This document shows positions 4,690-63,030 of a stretch of DNA of 64,000 nucleotides, piece by piece. A model generated the notes under the pieces. That model saw only the letters and a list, made by a program, of their open reading frames with translations, was not told the origin of the DNA and did no database searches. The stretch lies in contig BGZK01000087.1 of assembly GCA_005406025.1 (NCBI GenBank), positions 248,001-312,000 on the forward strand, in the 5' to 3' direction. Each line of letters starts with the position of its first letter. Within the stretch, counting starts at the first letter, position 1. The translations under genes and the position numbers were made by a program. This DNA comes from Eumeta japonica. Lineage: Eukaryota > Arthropoda > Insecta > Lepidoptera > Psychidae.

Positions 4690-5525
4690 AATCAATCAAA
4701 TCAAATCGAAAATAGCTTTATTTCGTAGGTAATAGAATTACACTTTAAATACGTTATTAACTAATTCTTTTCGTCATGAATATTACCACCCATTCCAAAT
4801 GCTGATTTACCTTGAGAAGAACGGACAAAAACTCAAGGGCTGCTCTTTTCGCACTCATCGATTCAAAGTATTGAATAATTAATAAGTTAATAAAACACTT
4901 AGAAATAACATTACACAACCTGATAACCGAGCACTTCAATCACATGGTTTTTTTTTCATTAAAATATTCAGACACGGTATAATGGCCCTTGGTATTTAAT
5001 TTCTTTTTAAAGAAAATTTTAAATTCATAAAATAGCAAATTTTGAAATCAAGCTTGAATCTTATTATAAAAGCGCATAAACAAGTGATTTTCTAACTTTG
5101 CTTAGTCGGAGTTTATGAGCAGCAAGATCGTTCTTATGTTTAGAATTAATGTTATGGATATTTGGAACGATTTTATATTTCTCTTACCATATACCAGGGT
5201 TTCGTATGTACATTCTAAGGTCACAGTTAAAGTCTTAGTTTCTTTAAATATTTCTCTGAGAGATTTTTTTGGTCTCCAATTATAAACAGCTCGAACAGCT
5301 CGCTTCTGTAGCATAAAAAATGTGTTAGTATCAGCTGCATGGCCCCATAATAAAATTCTATAAGTCATGAGACTATGAAAGGAACTGAAACAAATTAGTC
5401 TCGCGGTGCTTTCATCAGTAAGCTTTAATCAATAACCTGAATTCTTTTTACTGCATGTGCTGCAGAACTAAGCTTTTTCGATAATGTCTTAATCTAAAGT
5501 GAGACGTAGAAGTAAAATCATGTCC
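4690..5525 (-). mobile_element. Jockey-group LINE, 3' end (copy B)
   Basis: Minus-strand translation around 5368-5102 gives the C-terminal part of a LINE reverse transcriptase protein, with GHAADTNTFFMLQKRAVRAV and KSLREIFKE. A frame-shifted continuation upstream (5520-5430) reads as the TLSKKLSSAAHAVKR-type segment. The 3' end has AAATAAAGC followed by repeats of TTTGA at about 4712-4690. Two relatives occur at 34-37 kb and 62.2-63.0 kb with the same tail. The 5' part is absent and several frames are broken, so it is a dead 5'-truncated insertion. Confidence 0.85.
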
Positions 5526-5760
5526 ACAAAATCTAGTATCTTGTTCTTGACCATTACGAAAGCGTCGGTCAGTTTCAGTAGGTTAGTAAGACAAGAAAAA
5601 TTTATTAAATTTTGTTTTTTATTTTGAGAAGCAGATTATTAATACTAAATCACTCAACTATTTCAGAGATCGTACTGTTTACTTCGTCAAAAGTTGGTTC
5701 TAATTTAAATAATCGTAATGAAAAAATTAATGAATAACACAGGTTTGCTTAGTCATCAAC

Positions 5761-5774: not shown

Positions 5775-8700
5775 TTAATTCCCAGAGTCGATGACACTAA
5801 TATCCTCGATCCAGTTCGGCCACTGCTTGATGAGCTCCATGAGGCGGGCGCCGGGGCTCTCCGTCGGCCGCACCTGCATGTGTCCAACCAGGAAATAGTT
5901 TCTAGGCAGATGCCTTTTATTAACACCACACTTCAGAAGTCGTTGGGCTGCCCGCAAAGCTGCCGGGGTCGGTTCTTTTGCTGCAAAACAAAAAATATTT
6001 TATAAACATAGAAAAAATATGATGTGTCGCAGTATTTACGTTTATTAATTAATAAGTTATTGGAACGAAGTTCTAAACACACAACACGCCGCGAGGAGTT
6101 GGGCAGCAAAAATATCAAGTTATGTAAATGTTAGCATGATATAGAATAAACGCCCTATGTGAAGTATAGTACGCGTCCGAAGTGCCCGTGTTCGATTCTG
6201 CCTTAGCTTTTGGTATCTTTTTTAAATAAAAAAATAACAATTACTTGCAAACTTTTTAATTGATTTAATTGTTGTTTTTAATAAAATTATAATAGTAATG
6301 CTTTCATATTAAAGGCAATTATTGTATAATAATATTAATAGATTGCTTCGAGACGTTTTTGAACAATTTAAAAAAATATTATTTACTTGAATATATTACT
6401 TGTCAACACAAGTAAATAAATATGTATGCAAAAGGAAAGACTGGCGATTAACTATTTCTAAATTTTTGTTATGAAAATATTTCCAAAAAGCGATAGAAAT
6501 TTCGTTCTTACCGAGTGTCACCGAGACACCACTTTTCCTTTATAATAAAATTAATTACTTAGTTACCACTTATTTAATTATTGATTATTATATGACTATT
6601 AATTAACTATATGATTTTTAATTAACCATTAATTAACCATTAAATTATTAAGTGTTATTTGAATAAACCAATAACATGTTACATTAATAATATTCTTAAT
6701 TTATTCAACAAAACAAAATTTTTAAAAATAAATTTGTCGTAATTGTATTTTGACCTAGGATTTTGTCCAGAAATGCAGTTAAAAAGGAAACATTACACAT
6801 GGTACACGAAAAAAGAGGAATTTTATTTTGTTTACAGTAAAAGACTTTTCTTAATATATAGATTGTAATTATATAGGTTCTTATAAACCTACGAAGAATG
6901 TTAATGGGCACTAACAGAAATACTATGCTCGGTGTTGAGTAGACTTTTTGCAAGGAAAGCAGTGAATAAAGTAAACGCTTACTCCTAAAGTCTCCGATGA
7001 ACGCGATGCCGATGGACCTCCGGTTGTAGCCGAGGGAGTGCGAGCCCACGTTTTGCCAGCCCACTCCTTCGTACACCTTGCCGTTACCGCCTATCAGGAA
7101 ACTGCAACATAGTAATATAATCGCTATCACCATCTTTCAAATTTAAAAATAAATTCTGCTTTAGTAAAAGCCAGAAAAGCATAATTTCAAAAGAAATAAA
7201 TCTTTTCATATAAGCTTCTCGGTTTCTAATGCTTAAAATTTGGACCTTCGTTAATGTTTCACCAATTTAGCTTGTGTAACATTTTACAAGATTTTCCATT
7301 ACTAGTTCTTCCATAACCCTAGATAATTTTACAATTTGGAATTATGGAGCCTTGAATCAACCTCCATATTTTGTATATACCGTAGATGAGCATTACAGTA
7401 ATTATTGCTCCTCATAAAAGGACAAAATAAACACGAAACAGATATAGAAATAAATATTAAGAACGCAGAAGAAATCATGGAGCATAAAATCAATATAATG
7501 AATAATCAGAATGATAGCGAGACCAAAATCAAAACATAGAGCACAACAGCTGAGATTGGAATTGGAAACAAGGTTTGGAAAAAAACACACGCAGCATGAG
7601 GGTCGTGATCGAAAGAAAGCCCGCTCGATATGAAATATGAAGGAACTATCACACAGGTATAAGCATTTAAGTAAACTTTACAACATACACGCGCAACGCC
7701 GAGCGTTGCAAGAACATTTTCGTTACTTACTTATATGCTATATCCTTCCAACCGAGGTCCATCATGTGGTACCACTGAATGTTTCTGACGATGGATTCAC
7801 ATCGCTCGTCTGTGTAGCACTCCTGGGAGACGGTGTGCTGAATGATGACCAAGTTCACGGGCTGCTCCAGGGCCTCCACGAGCCGGGGGTCCATGGCGCC
7901 CCATTCGCTGGTGGTCACCGCGCCGCACTTGTCTAGCGAGGAAATAATATTTACTATAATGTCTGTTATTTTATCGAGGAAATAATATCTATTATTTCAT
8001 AATTCTGGACCAATGCTACTAATAAATAAATATATGAAAGTTGCTAACATTATATGTGCTACTTTAAGTTTCACCTGAATATAATTAGGAGACTTCTCAC
8101 CTTATTATTTAATAAGAAAATAAATCTTATACTCTTTACATATTCATGATACCTTCAGCGATCGCGTTAGGTCCACTATCGCTTCATCAAAATTATATAA
8201 TATACTTGTAATGTACAATATACATAATTATAAATTATACCTATTTTCATAATAATTAATTTTGAACTACTATTCGATTACTCGACTAGCCAGAACACGG
8301 AAATTGTAAATAATTACGATAAAATTCAACACCAGGCATGTCTGACTGAATGTTAGTACAATGGAAAATTTTGTCGTGAAACTAACGCCATTCCTAATGT
8401 CACATACAATAGGTATCTTAAAAATTAAACCATGAAATATATGTGATGATCGTATGTATTTGGATTAAAAGTAGACATTTGGGACAAAAAAATTTTGTTT
8501 TTATACTCATCTACTGTATTTTTGTTGTATGTCACACGTTTTTATCGATTGAGAATCAACTATATTTTTTTCTAAGTTCCAGCTATGATTAAAAAAATTT
8601 TCATACATTGGGCAGATACGGTTTTCAGTGGACTTTCAAAAATAGAGTTTTAATCGGATAATGACGTTTTAGGGCAGTAGTAACCTATTCTGACCACTTT

Positions 8701-16000: not shown

Positions 16001-16397
16001 TGATATATTACTGCTTTCGAAATATTGTATACTAATGAGAGAAGTTTTATAAAAAGATATCGAACTTGACTACTATTTTTCAAAATTAAATATATCTTAC
16101 ATCCGAAGAAAATTTCTTTATTTATTATAGTAATATAGATAATATAACGTAGACTATATTATTATTACATTGCCTTTTTTCACAAATAAAGTCATACATT
16201 CAATTTGGGTGCAACGGTAGTATTTGAAGGAACAGACATTAAATATCTTTATAATAAAATGTTTTGCCCAAGTGTTTTATTTAGTATTATCTTTCTACGA
16301 TATATCAACAGGTAACGAAAAAAAACCGAGTGGTGTCGTGGGACACCAGGTAGGAACGAAGTTCCTTCGGCTAATGTAGAATCGACACAATTTTCAA

Positions 16398-16841
16398 AAT
16401 AAACTTTTTAAATATTTTCATTAGTTTACTAGATATTTTTGCTTTATATTGTACCTTTCTTGCTTATTCTCATTTTTTTTTAGCTTTTTGACGTTCCCTA
16501 TTCTCCTTTTGATACTCTGCTTTGGTTTTTGGTGGTTTTGCAGTACTAAAAATGATTAATAAAATAGAATTATCAAAATATATATATATATATATATATA
16601 TATTTAAATGTTTGGAATTGAAGGGAGAATTTTTTTTAATTATTTAAAAGAATAATCAATAAACTTTTTAAATATTTTCATTACTTTAGAGGATATCTTT
16701 GCTTTATATCGTACCTTTTCTTGCTTCTTTTCATTTTTTTTAGCTTTTTGGCGTTCCCTATACTCCTTTTGATACTCTGCTTTGGTTTTTCGTGGTTTTG
16801 CAGTACTAAAAATTATTAAATATAAATAGAATTATTAATAC
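16398..16841. repeat. Tandem duplication, unit about 260 bp
   Basis: 16398-16580 and 16658-16841 align at an offset of 260 bp with only scattered differences; both carry aactttttaaatattttcat, the basic exon and flanking intron ends. A (TA)n tract at 16577-16602 separates them. The similarity is higher than in the neighbouring decayed elements, so the duplication is fairly recent. Confidence 0.85.
16455..16545 (-). pseudogene. Tandem duplicate of the basic exon, broken by a frameshift
   Basis: This 91-nt segment has the same acceptor and donor context as 16805-16715 and translates as KPPKTKAEYQKENRERQKAK. A run of nine A instead of eight then shifts the frame into TGA. Because each copy is 91 nt, including both would also shift the frame, so the copies could only work as alternatives. 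This copy looks dead for the conserved frame. Confidence 0.55.
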
Positions 16842-16890
16842 TAATAACATGTATATATATTTAGGACAGAATTAACTTTTAAAAAGTAAT

Positions 16891-16933
<43 letters not shown>

Positions 16934-17221
16934 CATACACACAGACACGCATAAACACAGACACGCACACACACATATATAATCTCTATAAAGTTTCGTT
17001 GTTTTTTTCTCAACTTTTCCGTATGACCCTCAAAACAGCAAGAAAGATAACCTAGAAAACCTTACAAAGATTTTAGTATGTACACACAATATTAACCAAT
17101 GTAAAATATTTTATATTTATAAATAAACTAATACTTACGTATTTAATTCTTTTGCATTGAATAATTTCCCACTATTATCACTGTCAATTGCATTCAAGTC
17201 ACTTGTTAGTTCACTTGCCAT
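16640..17221 (-). CDS. Small spliced gene for a highly basic 82-aa protein, function unknown
   Basis: Exon 1 is 17221-17139: ATG, then MASELTSDLN..., 27 codons plus AC, ending at a GTAAGT donor. Exon 2 begins at 16805 after a TTTTTAG acceptor. Its first base completes the split codon and the frame continues through KAEYQKEYRERQKAKKNEKK to TAA at 16642-16640 (249 nt in all). A GT at 16714 offers an alternative donor after QEK. Residues 29-58 form a charged Lys/Glu/Arg/Gln helix with YxxxYRERxKAKK character; the N-terminus is acidic. I know of no function; a nucleic-acid-binding or coiled-coil role is only a guess. A promoter-like block lies just upstream, and a decayed copy of exon 2 lies downstream. 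Confidence 0.5.
16894..16977 (+). repeat. (CA)n microsatellite with a short minisatellite
   Basis: About 16 CA units are followed by three related copies of a word like AGACACGCATAAACAC. The tract lies in the intron of the small basic gene. Confidence 0.95.
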
Positions 17222-17269
17222 TGTTACTATATTTATTATTGTTTTGACGATTTGAAATTATATGAAAAC

Positions 17270-17520
17270 AAGTCGCGCGGCATCATGCCAGTCGTGCCCG
17301 GTGTGATCCACCAATCAGCGCTCGCCGTTCGCCGAGCTCGCGTCACCTTGCGCCAATAAACGCACAGTAAAATAACGACATATCTAAAAATATACGACTG
17401 TCGCGCCTGCGCACGTCTCATTTAACGGTTTTATTCCACGGAGTTTTTCTTACGGTTTTACTATCACATTTTTTTCAGGTCGGTCGCGCAGCAAAATCCC
17501 TATCTCCTCCAAGCCCGCTG
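17270..17520 (-). promoter_or_regulatory. GC-rich promoter-like block upstream of the small basic gene
   Basis: On the minus strand the block contains TGCGCAGGCGC (NRF-1-like, about 17410-17400) and two ATTGG (inverted CCAAT) words in GTTTATTGGCGC and CTGATTGGTGG. CpG content is high compared with the surrounding DNA. It ends about 50 bp before the exon-1 ATG at 17221. The layout resembles a TATA-less housekeeping promoter. The 61-aa ORF across it (17421-17236) is more likely leader sequence. Confidence 0.5.
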
Positions 17521-17747
17521 TAAGGAACTTCGTTCCAAAAAGTGAATTCGCTAATTATAACGGCCAGTCATTTTATAGCTGATTTAAAAAAAAAGTTGTA
17601 TCTCTACTATCTCTTACGCATGCCAGTCACAAACGACATGGTTAAAATGGTTTAGGAATCCTTTTCTCGACCGGAGACGCACGTGAGTCATCATTTGGCG
17701 TGCTTTGTATGGAGCGGACCTTCTGCACCTATTTATCTTGTGCATAA

Positions 17748-33984: not shown

Positions 33985-36900
33985 AACCCATAGTGCCTGA
34001 AGGGAAAAATGCTAATAATAAAAAATATATACTCAATCTGGTGCATCAAAATGTACAGGCAATGTCAAGTCAGGAACTGGAAATTGAATTATTCATAAAT
34101 AGTAATGATATTAACATATTTGGCTTGAAAGTCACCAGTTCATGTTTTAACTTCAGTATTCAGCAAGCAAGTTAGTTTAACAAAGAAAAAGCTATACATG
34201 GCGGCTCTTTAATAATAGTTAAAAATAATATGAAATACAAAGAATGTCCAGATATTAAGAGCCTATTGAAGTAGCAAACTGTTGAAGTAACTAGAGCGGC
34301 TTATTGTATTAAGCATATCCAGACCCCCAAAGTCATCGTACTCGCATGACGTCCTCGAAAAGGTGATGGATGATATTTTATACACGTTAAGTTATAATAA
34401 CAAATTTATTGCTTTTAGCGGAGATTTTAATATACATCTATTGGAAAATTCTTGTTTATGCACTAGAATTAAACCCTTATTCTATTGTTGTCATTTAGAG
34501 GATTTATATTTGGAATCGACCAGGTTTACAGCTACTTCGTCATCCATTCTCGATAATATATTCACAAATATTAAACAAGAATTTTAGTCGATTATAATTA
34601 AATTATCATCTTATCATTTCGGACAGCTCGTAATGTTTGAAAATAAGTCAAAAAAAATACAATATAAAACATAAGTTCAAAGTTGTGCCTGTAAACACTG
34701 GTTGTCTGTAGCAGTTTAGAAATAACATGCTAAAAAAATTGTCTAACTTGTCTTAATGTAAGGACCTTAATAAATTATAGGGTTCAATGTTAACATAAAC
34801 AGGTCTGCATTAAGAAATATTTTTAAATCAAAAACTATTAATATTAATAATATTTTATAATTTGGTGACTGGGCGACAGTGGGAATTTATAATAGCAGGC
34901 GTAGATTATACGCACTTTATAAGAAAAAGTCGTATAACAATTAAATTATTTTTGTCAAGTAAATAAATATTCCAAGCTATTTAAGCATGTATGTGCAGCC
35001 GCAAAATCTATGTTTGTCAGTAATGAAAGAAAAAATAGCGCGGATGCGATGAAAACTTATTGGAATATAATGAATAATGAAACTGGAAAACATAAACCAT
35101 CATACAAATTTCAAAAAAAAATTATTATAAAATTTTAAATAAAAACAGAAAAATTGCTTTTGTTTTAGAAAATTTTTGCTAGCATTCCAGTTTCAACTAC
35201 ACAATCTCTAAAATCATCGCCCACTCTCGTTGAATCTCTGTTGAAGCGAAACGTTGATACTTGTAACATTATGTCTGAATTTACTCACGTAAACTACAAT
35301 GAAGTTATTAAAATATTCAAACGTATAAAAATGGAAAAACTGCTGATCGTGTTGGCTTTTCTGTAAAAATAATTGATTCAATAATAGATTGCAATGTTCC
35401 ATGCTTAGTAGTGATTTTTAATGCTTACCTTGATTGTAATGTGTTTCCTAATCTAATGAAGGAAAGTAAAGTTATTCCATTATTTTTGGATTCGGTAGTA
35501 TATCTGACCCTTCTTTTTTTAGACCGATATCAATACTACCGTCACTCAGTGAAATTTTTGAAAAGCTTATTTTAAATCAATTATCGTGATATTTTTGTAA
35601 CAATAATATGTATGTTAAACAATTTGGTTCGCGAGGGGGCGCTCAATAACTGAAGCCGGTGCAGAGCAACAGATTTTTGATGCCTGGGAGGATTCACGGA
35701 ATGCAATCGGTGTCTTGTGATTTATCCAAGGTTTTTGATTGCGTTCATCATGACACTTTGATCAGGAAACTACATTATTATGGTCCATCACTTGCACTTC
35801 TAGAGTCTTAATTAAGAGATAGAATTCAAAGAGTTGATGTTAATGGTGAGAGCTCGTCGGGATCTACAGTTAATATGAGTGTACCGCAGGATTCAATGCT
35901 TGGACCATTTCTATTCTTAGCTTACGTTAATGATCTACCATATCTTGTTAAAGAAGGGCATGGGATTGTACTGTTTGCTGATGATACCTTCTTACTTTTT
36001 AAGATTGATAGGTATCAATCAGCTTTTAAGAGGTAAACAGTACCATCTCTGTAATAGTTGAAGGATTTAGTATTAAGAAATTTCTGTTCAATGAAAGTAA
36101 ACAAAACTTTTCCCTATCTCATTCTAAATTGATTGACACAAACGTAACGGTCAAGAACGAAGTACTAGATATTGTAGAAGCGATCTTATTCCTTGGTCTC
36201 ACTTTAGATGCTAAATTGTGTTGGAATTCTCATATTAACACATTAACTAAACGCCTTAGTTCTGCAGCATATGCAGGGAAAAGAATTCGGAGAGTTACAG
36301 ATAAAATCACTGTGATACTAGCTTATTTCGCTTTTGCTCATAGTCTCATGACCTATAAAAGTTTGTTATTGCGTCACGTAGCCGATATTAACACAATTTT
36401 ATGCCGCAGAAGCGAGCTATTCGTACTATTTATGATTTGAGACCAATGGTATCTCGCAGAAAAAAATTTAAGGAATTCAATATTGTAACTTTAGCATCAC
36501 AATACATATACGTAAACCTGGTATATCTCTAGAAACATATAGAATCGTCCTAAAAAAGAAACGACATACATAACATTAACACTAGACACAAAAATGATCT
36601 TTCTGCTCATAAAACCCAACTAACCAAAATGAATAAATAATTTAAAGGGAAATATGCGTACCTTTATAATAATATCCTCGCTGAAGTTCAAAATTTGCCA
36701 CTATATGAATTTAAAGGTTTCATAAAAAAAAAAATTATGACTGTGGCAATTATATTTTGTCATAATGGAAAAAACCCATGGGATTGAATTTCTCGACTAT
36801 CAGGTTGCTTCATGCTATTACTAAGTGTTGTACTAAATATTTACTTATTCAATATTTTGTATCGATGAGTAAGAAAGAACAAACCTTGAATTTCTTGCTC

Positions 36901-44025: not shown

Positions 44026-44753
44026 ACATAAATTGTCCAAGAGCTGGTAGACATTTTTGCGTAGGTATTTGACGCACCCTAAAAATTATTATAATTCTTT
44101 TTTTATAACTGTATACAAAAACGTAGACCTAAGGGGTGTTGTAGCTTAACCAATCATTGAATCGATCTTCGACTGGCTAATAAAATATTCAACCAAAACT
44201 ACCTGTCTTTTTGAAAATATTTATTTTTGATTACGAATATTACTCTGTTCAAATCTTAGCATGCCTCAAACATATTTTATTCATATAAGAATATTTATTC
44301 TTTTTGCATAACTGACTAGTAAAAATGAAATGAAGAGGTAATTTCTTCTTTCTGTAAAAACAAAGGACATGTTGACAATATAATTGTATTTTATTTTTGG
44401 AAATCATTAATTCTTATATTACAATAGTTACTATACATTGCTTCTAAACAAAAAAAACATCTGTAAAAACAAAAGAAACAACAATTCAAGCCTTTATGTC
44501 AGACCTCGTTATTTCTTTATCGTCTAAGAGCTAGAGCCGGCAACCTAAAGGTAAATTATAAAACCTGAAATTTTGCCCAGGAAGTTTCTTGTATGTGTCA
44601 CCCATTAGACGGAGTCTCGCTGAGCCCAGCGAGGTGGATCCTGGTTATTCTCAGGCGCGCCAAGTATAAAAATTTCACCAATTTTAAAAGTATTTTATAA
44701 AGGCTGAAGTTTTGAAATTCAAAATATATAAACATTATTATTCAAAAATAACA

Positions 44754-45390: not shown

Positions 45391-45779
45391 TTACCTAATA
45401 ATATAATACAATTGTGTTCCTTCGTTTTGACAGAAAGAAGTAATTACCTCTTTATTTAATTTTTACTAATCAGTTATGTAAAAACAGTAAATATTTTTAT
45501 ATGAATAAAATATATTTGAGACATACTAAGATTTAAACAGAGTAATATTGGTAATCAGAAATAAATATTTTCAAAAAGACAGGTAGTTTTGGTTGAATAT
45601 TCTATTTGCCAGTCGACGATCAATTCAAGAATTGGTTAAGCTACACTACCTTTTAGGTCTACGTTTTTGTATACAGTTATAAAAAAAAGATTGTAAAAAT
45701 TTTTAGGGTGCGTCCAATACCTACGCAAAAATGTCTACCAGCTCTTGGACAGTTTATGAAAAACTCACAATGTTTACAC

Positions 45780-62159: not shown

Positions 62160-63030
62160 TCATTTCTCGACGCTTTTATTTCTTAGTCTCACTTTAGTTG
62201 CTAAGTTATAGTGGGATTGTGATATAACGAAATTAACTAAAAACCTCGGTTCTGCAGCACACGCAGTCAAAAGAAACCGGCGGCTGACGCGCGACAGCGG
62301 CGCGAGACTCATTTACTTCATTTATTCCTTACGTAGTCTCATTACCGATTGCACTTTGTCATGGGCCATGCGGCCGATGTAAATATAATTTTGTGTTGAA
62401 GAAGCGCACTATTCGTGACTTTTTTATTTGAGCCTAAAAGCATGTCTCAAAGATAAATTTTAAATATTTAATATTTTACTTTAACCGTCTCAATACATAT
62501 GAAAACCTGATACACGTCAAGAGAAACTGCTCCAAATTGTTCCAAAAAATGAACGACATCCATACCTAATGTTAACACTAGACATAAAAATGACCTTGCT
62601 GTTCATAAAACCCGTTTCAAAAAAGTTAGCAAGTCATTTAAGGGGTAATGTGTGCGGTTTTGTAATAAGGTTCCTCAAATGCACAATGCTGTTTCACGCA
62701 CTTAAAAAGGTCATTAAAATAAATATGTTAAGGATTATTATGTCATATCTTAATATATTAACTAAAAAAACTTCTGGGATTGAACTGATCTGCTATCAGG
62801 TTGTGTCATGCAATTTCCAAATGTTGTATTAGTTTTCTAGTTTTATTAACTATCAGTATCCCGTATCTTAAATCAAAAAAGGACAAACCTTAAGTTCGTT
62901 GGCCCTTCTACTCAGGGCGAATCAGCATTTGGAATGTGTAGTAATCTTTATGTCAAAAGAATGTGATAATGACGTATTACAATTGTGATCCTATTACCTA
63001 CGAATTAGAGATATTTTGATTTGATTTGTT
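62160..63030 (+). mobile_element. Jockey-group LINE, 3' end (copy C)
   Basis: From 62180, CTTAGTCTCACTTTAGTTGC then TAAGTTATAGTGGGATTG parallels the LGLTLDAKLCWN region of copy A. GGTTCTGCAGCACACGCAGT corresponds to the SSAAYA segment. CTACTCAGGGCGAATCAGCA then TTTGGAATGTG matches the 3' UTR of copies A and B. It ends TTTTGATTTGATTTGTTT. It is 5'-truncated and full of stops. Confidence 0.85.

Follow-up and report, generated by a model that had tools for sequence, protein, structure and literature searches.

The unit at 16318..17541 on the minus strand of our window, a stretch of 64,000 nucleotides from the Eumeta japonica genome, is very probably a HINE, or non-autonomous Helentron. In this reading it is a rolling-circle transposon with an internal deletion, in which the two replication ends are preserved along with the 5' part of the transposase gene of its parent. 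The unit is repeated, of mobile type, and carries promoter-like DNA and exons; the kind of element is already known, while the family is new. The copy number, the ends, one empty site and the exon structure are the directly established parts of this reading. A preliminary description of the same DNA had seen a small spliced gene, perhaps within a mobile unit, that matched no known family. The ends and the insertion traits nevertheless fit those of non-autonomous Helentrons of the HINE/DINE-1 type, and the apparent orphan gene, with its promoter and splice sites, is explained as the remains of a transposon. An Rfam search of the window gave no match at the gathering score.

Layout, copy number and ends of the element

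Read in its sense direction (minus strand), the window copy extends from T-run to T-run, with termini common to other copies; an empty site is known for another copy of the family. Five T residues (17541-17537) lie just before an exact palindromic sub-terminal repeat, GGAACGAAGTTCC (17524..17536). Within the GC-rich 5' block are the site TGCGCAGGCGCG (17402..17413), found with at most one mismatch in 21 of the 25 distinct 5' ends analysed, and two boxes at 17353-17357 and 17311-17315. We take these to be an NRF-1-like site and CCAAT boxes. They lie upstream of exon 1 at the places given in the preliminary description, and the block is presumably a promoter.

Exon 1, the start exon (17139..17221, minus strand, 83 nt), opens with an ATG at 17221, encodes MASELTSDLNAIDSDNSGKLFNAKELN plus a split codon and is followed by a GTAAGT donor at 17138. 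The intron contains a CA-rich microsatellite (16893..16977) and closes with the acceptor TTTTTAG, which ends at 16806. Next comes the basic module of exon 2 (16715..16805, minus strand), which at 91 nt is one base above a 90-nt cassette. Start exon, donor, acceptor and the basic exon from 16805 all lie on the minus strand exactly where they had been described. There are two tandem copies of exon 2 at a distance of 260 bp, and the second (16455..16545, minus strand, also 91 nt) has internal stops. At the 3' end are an exact inverted copy of GGAACGAAGTTCC (16353..16365), which reads on the plus strand here and on the minus strand at 17524-17536, then the hairpin TGGTGTC-CCAC-GACACCA (16331..16348, minus strand; fold of -10.0 kcal/mol with RNA parameters), and finally a T-run (16325-16318 in sense). 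The inverted copies of GGAACGAAGTTCC had been taken as the boundaries of the unit. Both are indeed exact and inverted, but they are sub-terminal, and the element continues past the hairpin to the T-run at 16318-16325. No OTU-like region, Rep or helicase is present in the window copy.

The suspicion that this is a repeated, mobile-type unit is borne out by counts over the 701.7-Mb E. japonica assembly. The exact GGAACGAAGTTCC 13-mer occurs 936+928 times (1,864 in total) against 1+2 (3) for the reversed pattern that served as its control, and its abundance is therefore not due to chance. Allowing at most two mismatches, the 3' repeat plus hairpin has 367+352 (719) genomic copies, and the first 41 bases of exon 1, at up to three mismatches, have 164+163 (327), with 0+0 in the control in both cases. 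A DNA search with the whole unit returned at least 111 matching pieces, with 40 of 901 candidates scored. In 29 rows of that search the 5' block (about 276 bp) is 96-97% alike and exon 1 is absent; exon 1 is retained in other copies of the unit. Exon 2 was matched by protein search, with 150 of 367 candidates scored, on at least five contigs (C86, which is the window contig, C737, C2215, C1860 and C367). With 327 copies of exon 1 and broken frames in the window, the unit is not the single-copy ordinary gene that would contradict a mobile origin. Hundreds of false promoter or start-exon predictions are possible in this genome, and the dispersed 5' blocks with their splice donors could, if transcribed, initiate chimeric transcripts. 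Viral contigs gave 0 matches to either exact end pattern (3' or 5'), and prokaryote genome contigs gave 0 to the 3'-end pattern.

We compared 21 end pairs, of which three rows from locus L010 and two from L038 share one 3' end each, using end patterns that allow at most three mismatches. In sense, copies start TT|GGAACGAAGTTCCTTAC and finish GGAACTTCGTTCC-TACC-TGGTGTC-CCAC-GACACCA, followed by ACTCG or ACATTGA-like bases and then T. The palindrome GGAAC-GAA-GTTCC stands at both termini of the window copy and of the 21 end pairs (at most three mismatches over the longer patterns), and TT immediately precedes all 27 distinct 5' ends in the loci analysed. A loose 3' pattern matched at 49 distinct places. 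The hairpin is present at 21 of these and missing from 28; 25 of the latter are antisense 5' ends, and the other three are at L003, L006 and L038, where L038 has a paired 3' end without a hairpin. These are not canonical Helitron ends (5'-TC, 3'-CTRR, AT target): the termini are T-runs, with GGAAC at one end and ACTCG or ACATTGA and then a T-run at the other.

An empty site was found for a copy nested in contig C2215, by comparison with a paralogous site. The target is T-rich (TAGTT|TATTTTT) and its flanks are not duplicated, with the exact 3' border blurred by Ts. It was the one empty site from 18 joined flank pairs tested, the remaining 17 giving none. The 13-bp inverted repeats at both ends and the hundreds of short copies could also belong to a MITE, derived from a cut-and-paste transposon with short terminal inverted repeats. 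However, the ends are asymmetric: at the 5' end the repeat directly adjoins the T-run, whereas at the other it lies about 30 nt inside the 3' end (27-35 nt from it in the family), the stem-loop is found at the 3' end only, and there are T-runs at both ends. Taken with the lack of a duplication at the one empty site and with exons like those of a Rep-type protein, this makes a MITE extremely unlikely. The traits that the available part of PMC4067079 gives for Helentrons and HINEs are palindromic sub-terminal repeats of 12-15 bp, a 3' hairpin and T-rich insertion without target modification.

A diverged copy of the unit's left end had also been reported at 6.5 kb. Related sequence is present there, but by eye it forms the 3' end of another element, diverged yet laid out in the same way (6060..6537, plus strand). 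Its 5' repeat (6062-6074) is a one-mismatch copy of GGAACGAAGTTCC beginning at 6062, its 3' repeat is at 6496-6508 and its hairpin at 6515-6529. This element looks older and contains a GTTCGATTC box of the kind found in tRNA-derived SINEs. It adjoins a peptidoglycan-recognition-like coding sequence, with an Amidase_2 match at 6705-7133 on the minus strand. Elsewhere in the window we observed an inverted repeat of 341 nt (44027-44367 and 45418-45758, 91% complementary and 1,050 nt apart), as well as related repeat stretches at 4709-5691, 36024-36733 and 62171-63017, which have 73-81% similarity in mixed orientation.

Exons and their likeness to Helentron proteins

Exon 2 has the form of a cassette, with TTTTTAG or TTTTCAG as its acceptor and AAAG|GTACRA as its donor. 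A module pattern found 11 copies in five sequences: six of 90 nt, open and with phase 2 on both sides, three of 91 nt, and two without a donor by this pattern, which missed an exon-2 match of the protein search (L044, on C367). On C2215, five of six modules are open, 90 nt long and equipped with both splice sites, and the sixth is interrupted by a nested element. The NCBI model P0123 on the same contig joins modules at the cassette borders, six in a row, with the last running on. The preliminary description had the basic exon of the window joined in correct phase; the splice sites are there, but its 82-aa reading passes through the donor AAAG|GTACGA (16714) that is common to other copies. Pfam matches of the 82-aa reading to arabinose isomerase, TCTP and EMC3 were all below curated cut-offs, and we rejected them.

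The first exon-2 copy in the window is similar to the N-terminal modules of Helentron proteins. Compared with 120 of these proteins, the exon-2 module reached a top score of 73, the best of 200 shuffles being 62, and 38 of the 120 proteins scored 45 or more (shuffles: mean 2.5, maximum 12). A score of 52 was also reached beyond residue 450 of the same proteins, by P0001, which has similar modules in its tail. Exon 1 alone scored 40 against the 120 proteins, with a shuffle maximum of 48. Nothing here rises above the shuffles. Exon 1 is tied to Helentrons solely through one Cotesia glomerata protein, P0121, which is composed of exon 1, a B-like module and module C.

From P0121, the overlaps lead to Bombyx mori P0124, with modules in the order A-A-A-B-C, and to Chilo suppressalis P0086, in which module C is combined with an OTU-like region, DUF6570 and Helitron_like_N. 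Module C is identical at 55 of 64 residues between P0086 and P0124. The gene model P0086 looks chimeric, beginning with DUF4817, and the OTU-like region was called by eye, OTU not being listed by Pfam. No single protein among those compared has both exon 1 and Rep; the link runs through overlapping proteins. On contig C1145 of E. japonica, a longer basic exon with the same acceptor phase contains a homologous stretch, AQYQKEYRQRQKEKK, and the next exon leads into the Helentron OTU-like region. This chain of proteins across three species supports a descent of the exons from a Helentron protein. The spliced "micro-protein" most plausibly represents the N-terminal part of a Helentron transposase, whose 5' exons would then carry MASELTSDLN and the KTKAEYQKEYRERQK modules. 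The proposal of an element that carries a promoter and a spliced micro-protein instead of a transposase thus stands as regards the promoter-like block, the splice-competent exons and the lack of a full transposase, but the protein itself is probably not a separate micro-protein.

Promoters of the NRF-1/CCAAT type are typical of host genes. Together with an exon 1 that, taken alone, has no match in the 120 Helentron proteins, the motifs of the 5' block would agree with the capture, by a Helentron, of the promoter and first exons of an ordinary host gene, and capture of gene fragments by Helentrons is indeed described in the available part of PMC4067079. However, in Helentron proteins from several species the modules precede the OTU-like region and Rep on the N-terminal side. 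Exon 1 has many matches, and the protein searches brought up no separate host gene beginning with it. We therefore consider such a capture very improbable.

The window copy is decayed. Both of its modules are 91 nt long, so that splicing at the 16714 donor would shift the frame, and the second has stops. In codons 1-21 of exon 1 (18 of 19 copies, with L033 left out), we counted nine non-synonymous and two synonymous changes against a neutral expectation of 2.67:1; with 11 changes the sample is small, and it was by protein similarity that these copies were retrieved. Within Eumeta, there is no sign of purifying selection on the frame of exon 1.

These data also bear on whether the mobile unit carries a functional small spliced protein, such as a trans-acting repressor made from the transposase N-terminus and kept for regulating transposition or the host. 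Conservation between species could be taken this way: the Eumeta exon-1 consensus is identical to the start of two C. glomerata proteins at 27 of 28 residues (P0122) and 25 of 28 (P0121), module A is identical to its Bombyx counterpart at 28 of 30, and five of the six C2215 modules remain intact. The window modules, with their extra base and the stops in the second, argue against it, as do the nine non-synonymous to two synonymous changes in exon 1, though counted in copies chosen on protein similarity, and the 29 rows in which the 5' block occurs without exon 1. A functional protein is hence highly unlikely, and the exons in the window copy are presumably functionless leftovers of the Helentron.

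Proposed origin and the search for an autonomous partner

We propose that internal deletion of a parent Helentron would have spared both replication ends. The 5' part of the parent's transposase gene would have survived as a remnant, consisting of the promoter-like block, the start exon and two copies of the symmetric basic-module exon. An intact Helentron would supply Rep/helicase, and possibly an endonuclease, in trans, to act on the hairpin and the sub-terminal repeats, and the new copy would be placed between T residues with no target duplication. Helentron machinery is thus the presumed mover of the unit.

We did not find an intact Helentron with GGAACGAAGTTCC ends in the limited stretches of genome letters covered in the E. 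japonica assembly. Two Helentrons were considered as partners. The one on C2215 has an OTU-like frame; 2.7 kb upstream of this frame lies a GGAAC 5' end, whose 244-bp 5' block is 96% alike, and the contig has a reading frame identical to E. japonica P0001. We dropped this Helentron as a direct partner because its 3' end looks different and no family GGAAC repeat or hairpin (at most two mismatches) follows downstream through the end of L040. In the C2215 pieces, some of which look endonuclease-like by eye, Pfam gave no match to OTU or to an endonuclease. The second Helentron, on C1145 (P0041), likewise lacks support as the partner: the 1.5 kb further upstream hold only a repeat look-alike with three mismatches, and no exon 1. 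A search of the Eumeta genome for module C did not match it; all 25 candidates were scored, and each of the five matches fell on the query's first module, which is of B type.

The first 20 kb of C2215 (L039, C2215:1-10000, and L040, C2215:10001-20000) are a nest of elements, with tandem modules and copies inside copies. Next to this nest is a Helentron whose Rep reading frame is open over 871 aa and whose 3' end differs. Many Helentron Rep matches lie on a single contig, C1081, some of them in long open frames; this cluster is a candidate place for the autonomous partner.

Exons in other species and comparison with known systems

The split between moths and wasps is very old. Exon 1 is nearly identical in the two and shows no constraint within Eumeta, which therefore points to horizontal transfer; on these protein comparisons, the exons have probably passed between moth and wasp. 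That nearly identical exons occur in a braconid suggests transfer between parasitoids and moths, and the available parts of four papers describe such transfer for other Helitrons (PMC4344730, PMC5714489, PMC9389653, PMC4038834).

According to its protein record, Bombyx P0124 is zinc finger protein pita isoform X5, with three A modules, one B module and module C at its C-terminal end (residues ~519 to 703). Its zf-AD and C2H2 Pfam matches are below curated cut-offs. It is possible that Helentron modules were exonised into the host gene pita, and with the annotated isoform, donation of exons by such elements is open to direct testing. Since the exons are phase 2-2, they could join host genes by splicing at introns of matching phase, and further copies of them would leave the frame intact. 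Perhaps, then, a Helentron lineage that has spread horizontally serves as a mobile set of parts, made up of a promoter, a start exon and symmetric 90-nt exons that can replace one another. Host DNA-binding proteins would in this way gain tandem basic modules of 30 aa, the pita isoform being an example; we consider this rather unlikely. Among open-licence papers, searches on Helentron (DINE-1, Lepidoptera, exon/splicing/promoter) and on Helitron/Bombyx exonization did not return the present case. Eumeta is not mentioned in the available part of PMC6544945, nor pita in that of PMC8476886.

HINEs are deletion derivatives of Helentrons in the available part of Thomas et al. 2014 (PMC4067079), which also describes microsatellites in HINE/DINE-1 elements. 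The window unit is like these elements, DINE-1/INE-1 included, in its palindromic repeats, 3' hairpin, T-rich target, microsatellite and tandem repeats and high copy number. It differs in having retained a promoter-like block, a start exon and tandem symmetric transposase exons. In mite elements, the same source places the sub-terminal repeat 38-60 nt from the 3' end, a little further away than the 27-35 nt of the window family. The Lepidoptera Helentrons with an OTU-like region (Eumeta P0001 and P0041, Chilo suppressalis P0086) have basic modules N-terminal to the OTU-like region and Rep, with phase-2 acceptors on C1145 and C2215, whereas the window copy has neither the OTU-like region nor Rep nor helicase.

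Hel-2 (PMC4344730) and Lep1 (PMC4038834), known from Lepidoptera and bracoviruses, are, in the available parts of these papers, likewise short non-autonomous rolling-circle elements that spread between moths and parasitoid wasps or wasp viruses. Hel-2 shares sub-terminal inverted repeats and a 3' hairpin with the window unit, but it has 5'-TC and 3'-CTRR ends with flanking A/T (PMC4344730), in contrast to the T-run ends without CTRR found here. Exons donated by Helitrons to silkworm transcripts (Han et al. 2013, PMC3789558, available part) are a further case of rolling-circle elements giving exons to host transcripts, as may have happened in Bombyx pita. In the pita isoform, however, the modules in the protein record would be those of the element's own transposase.
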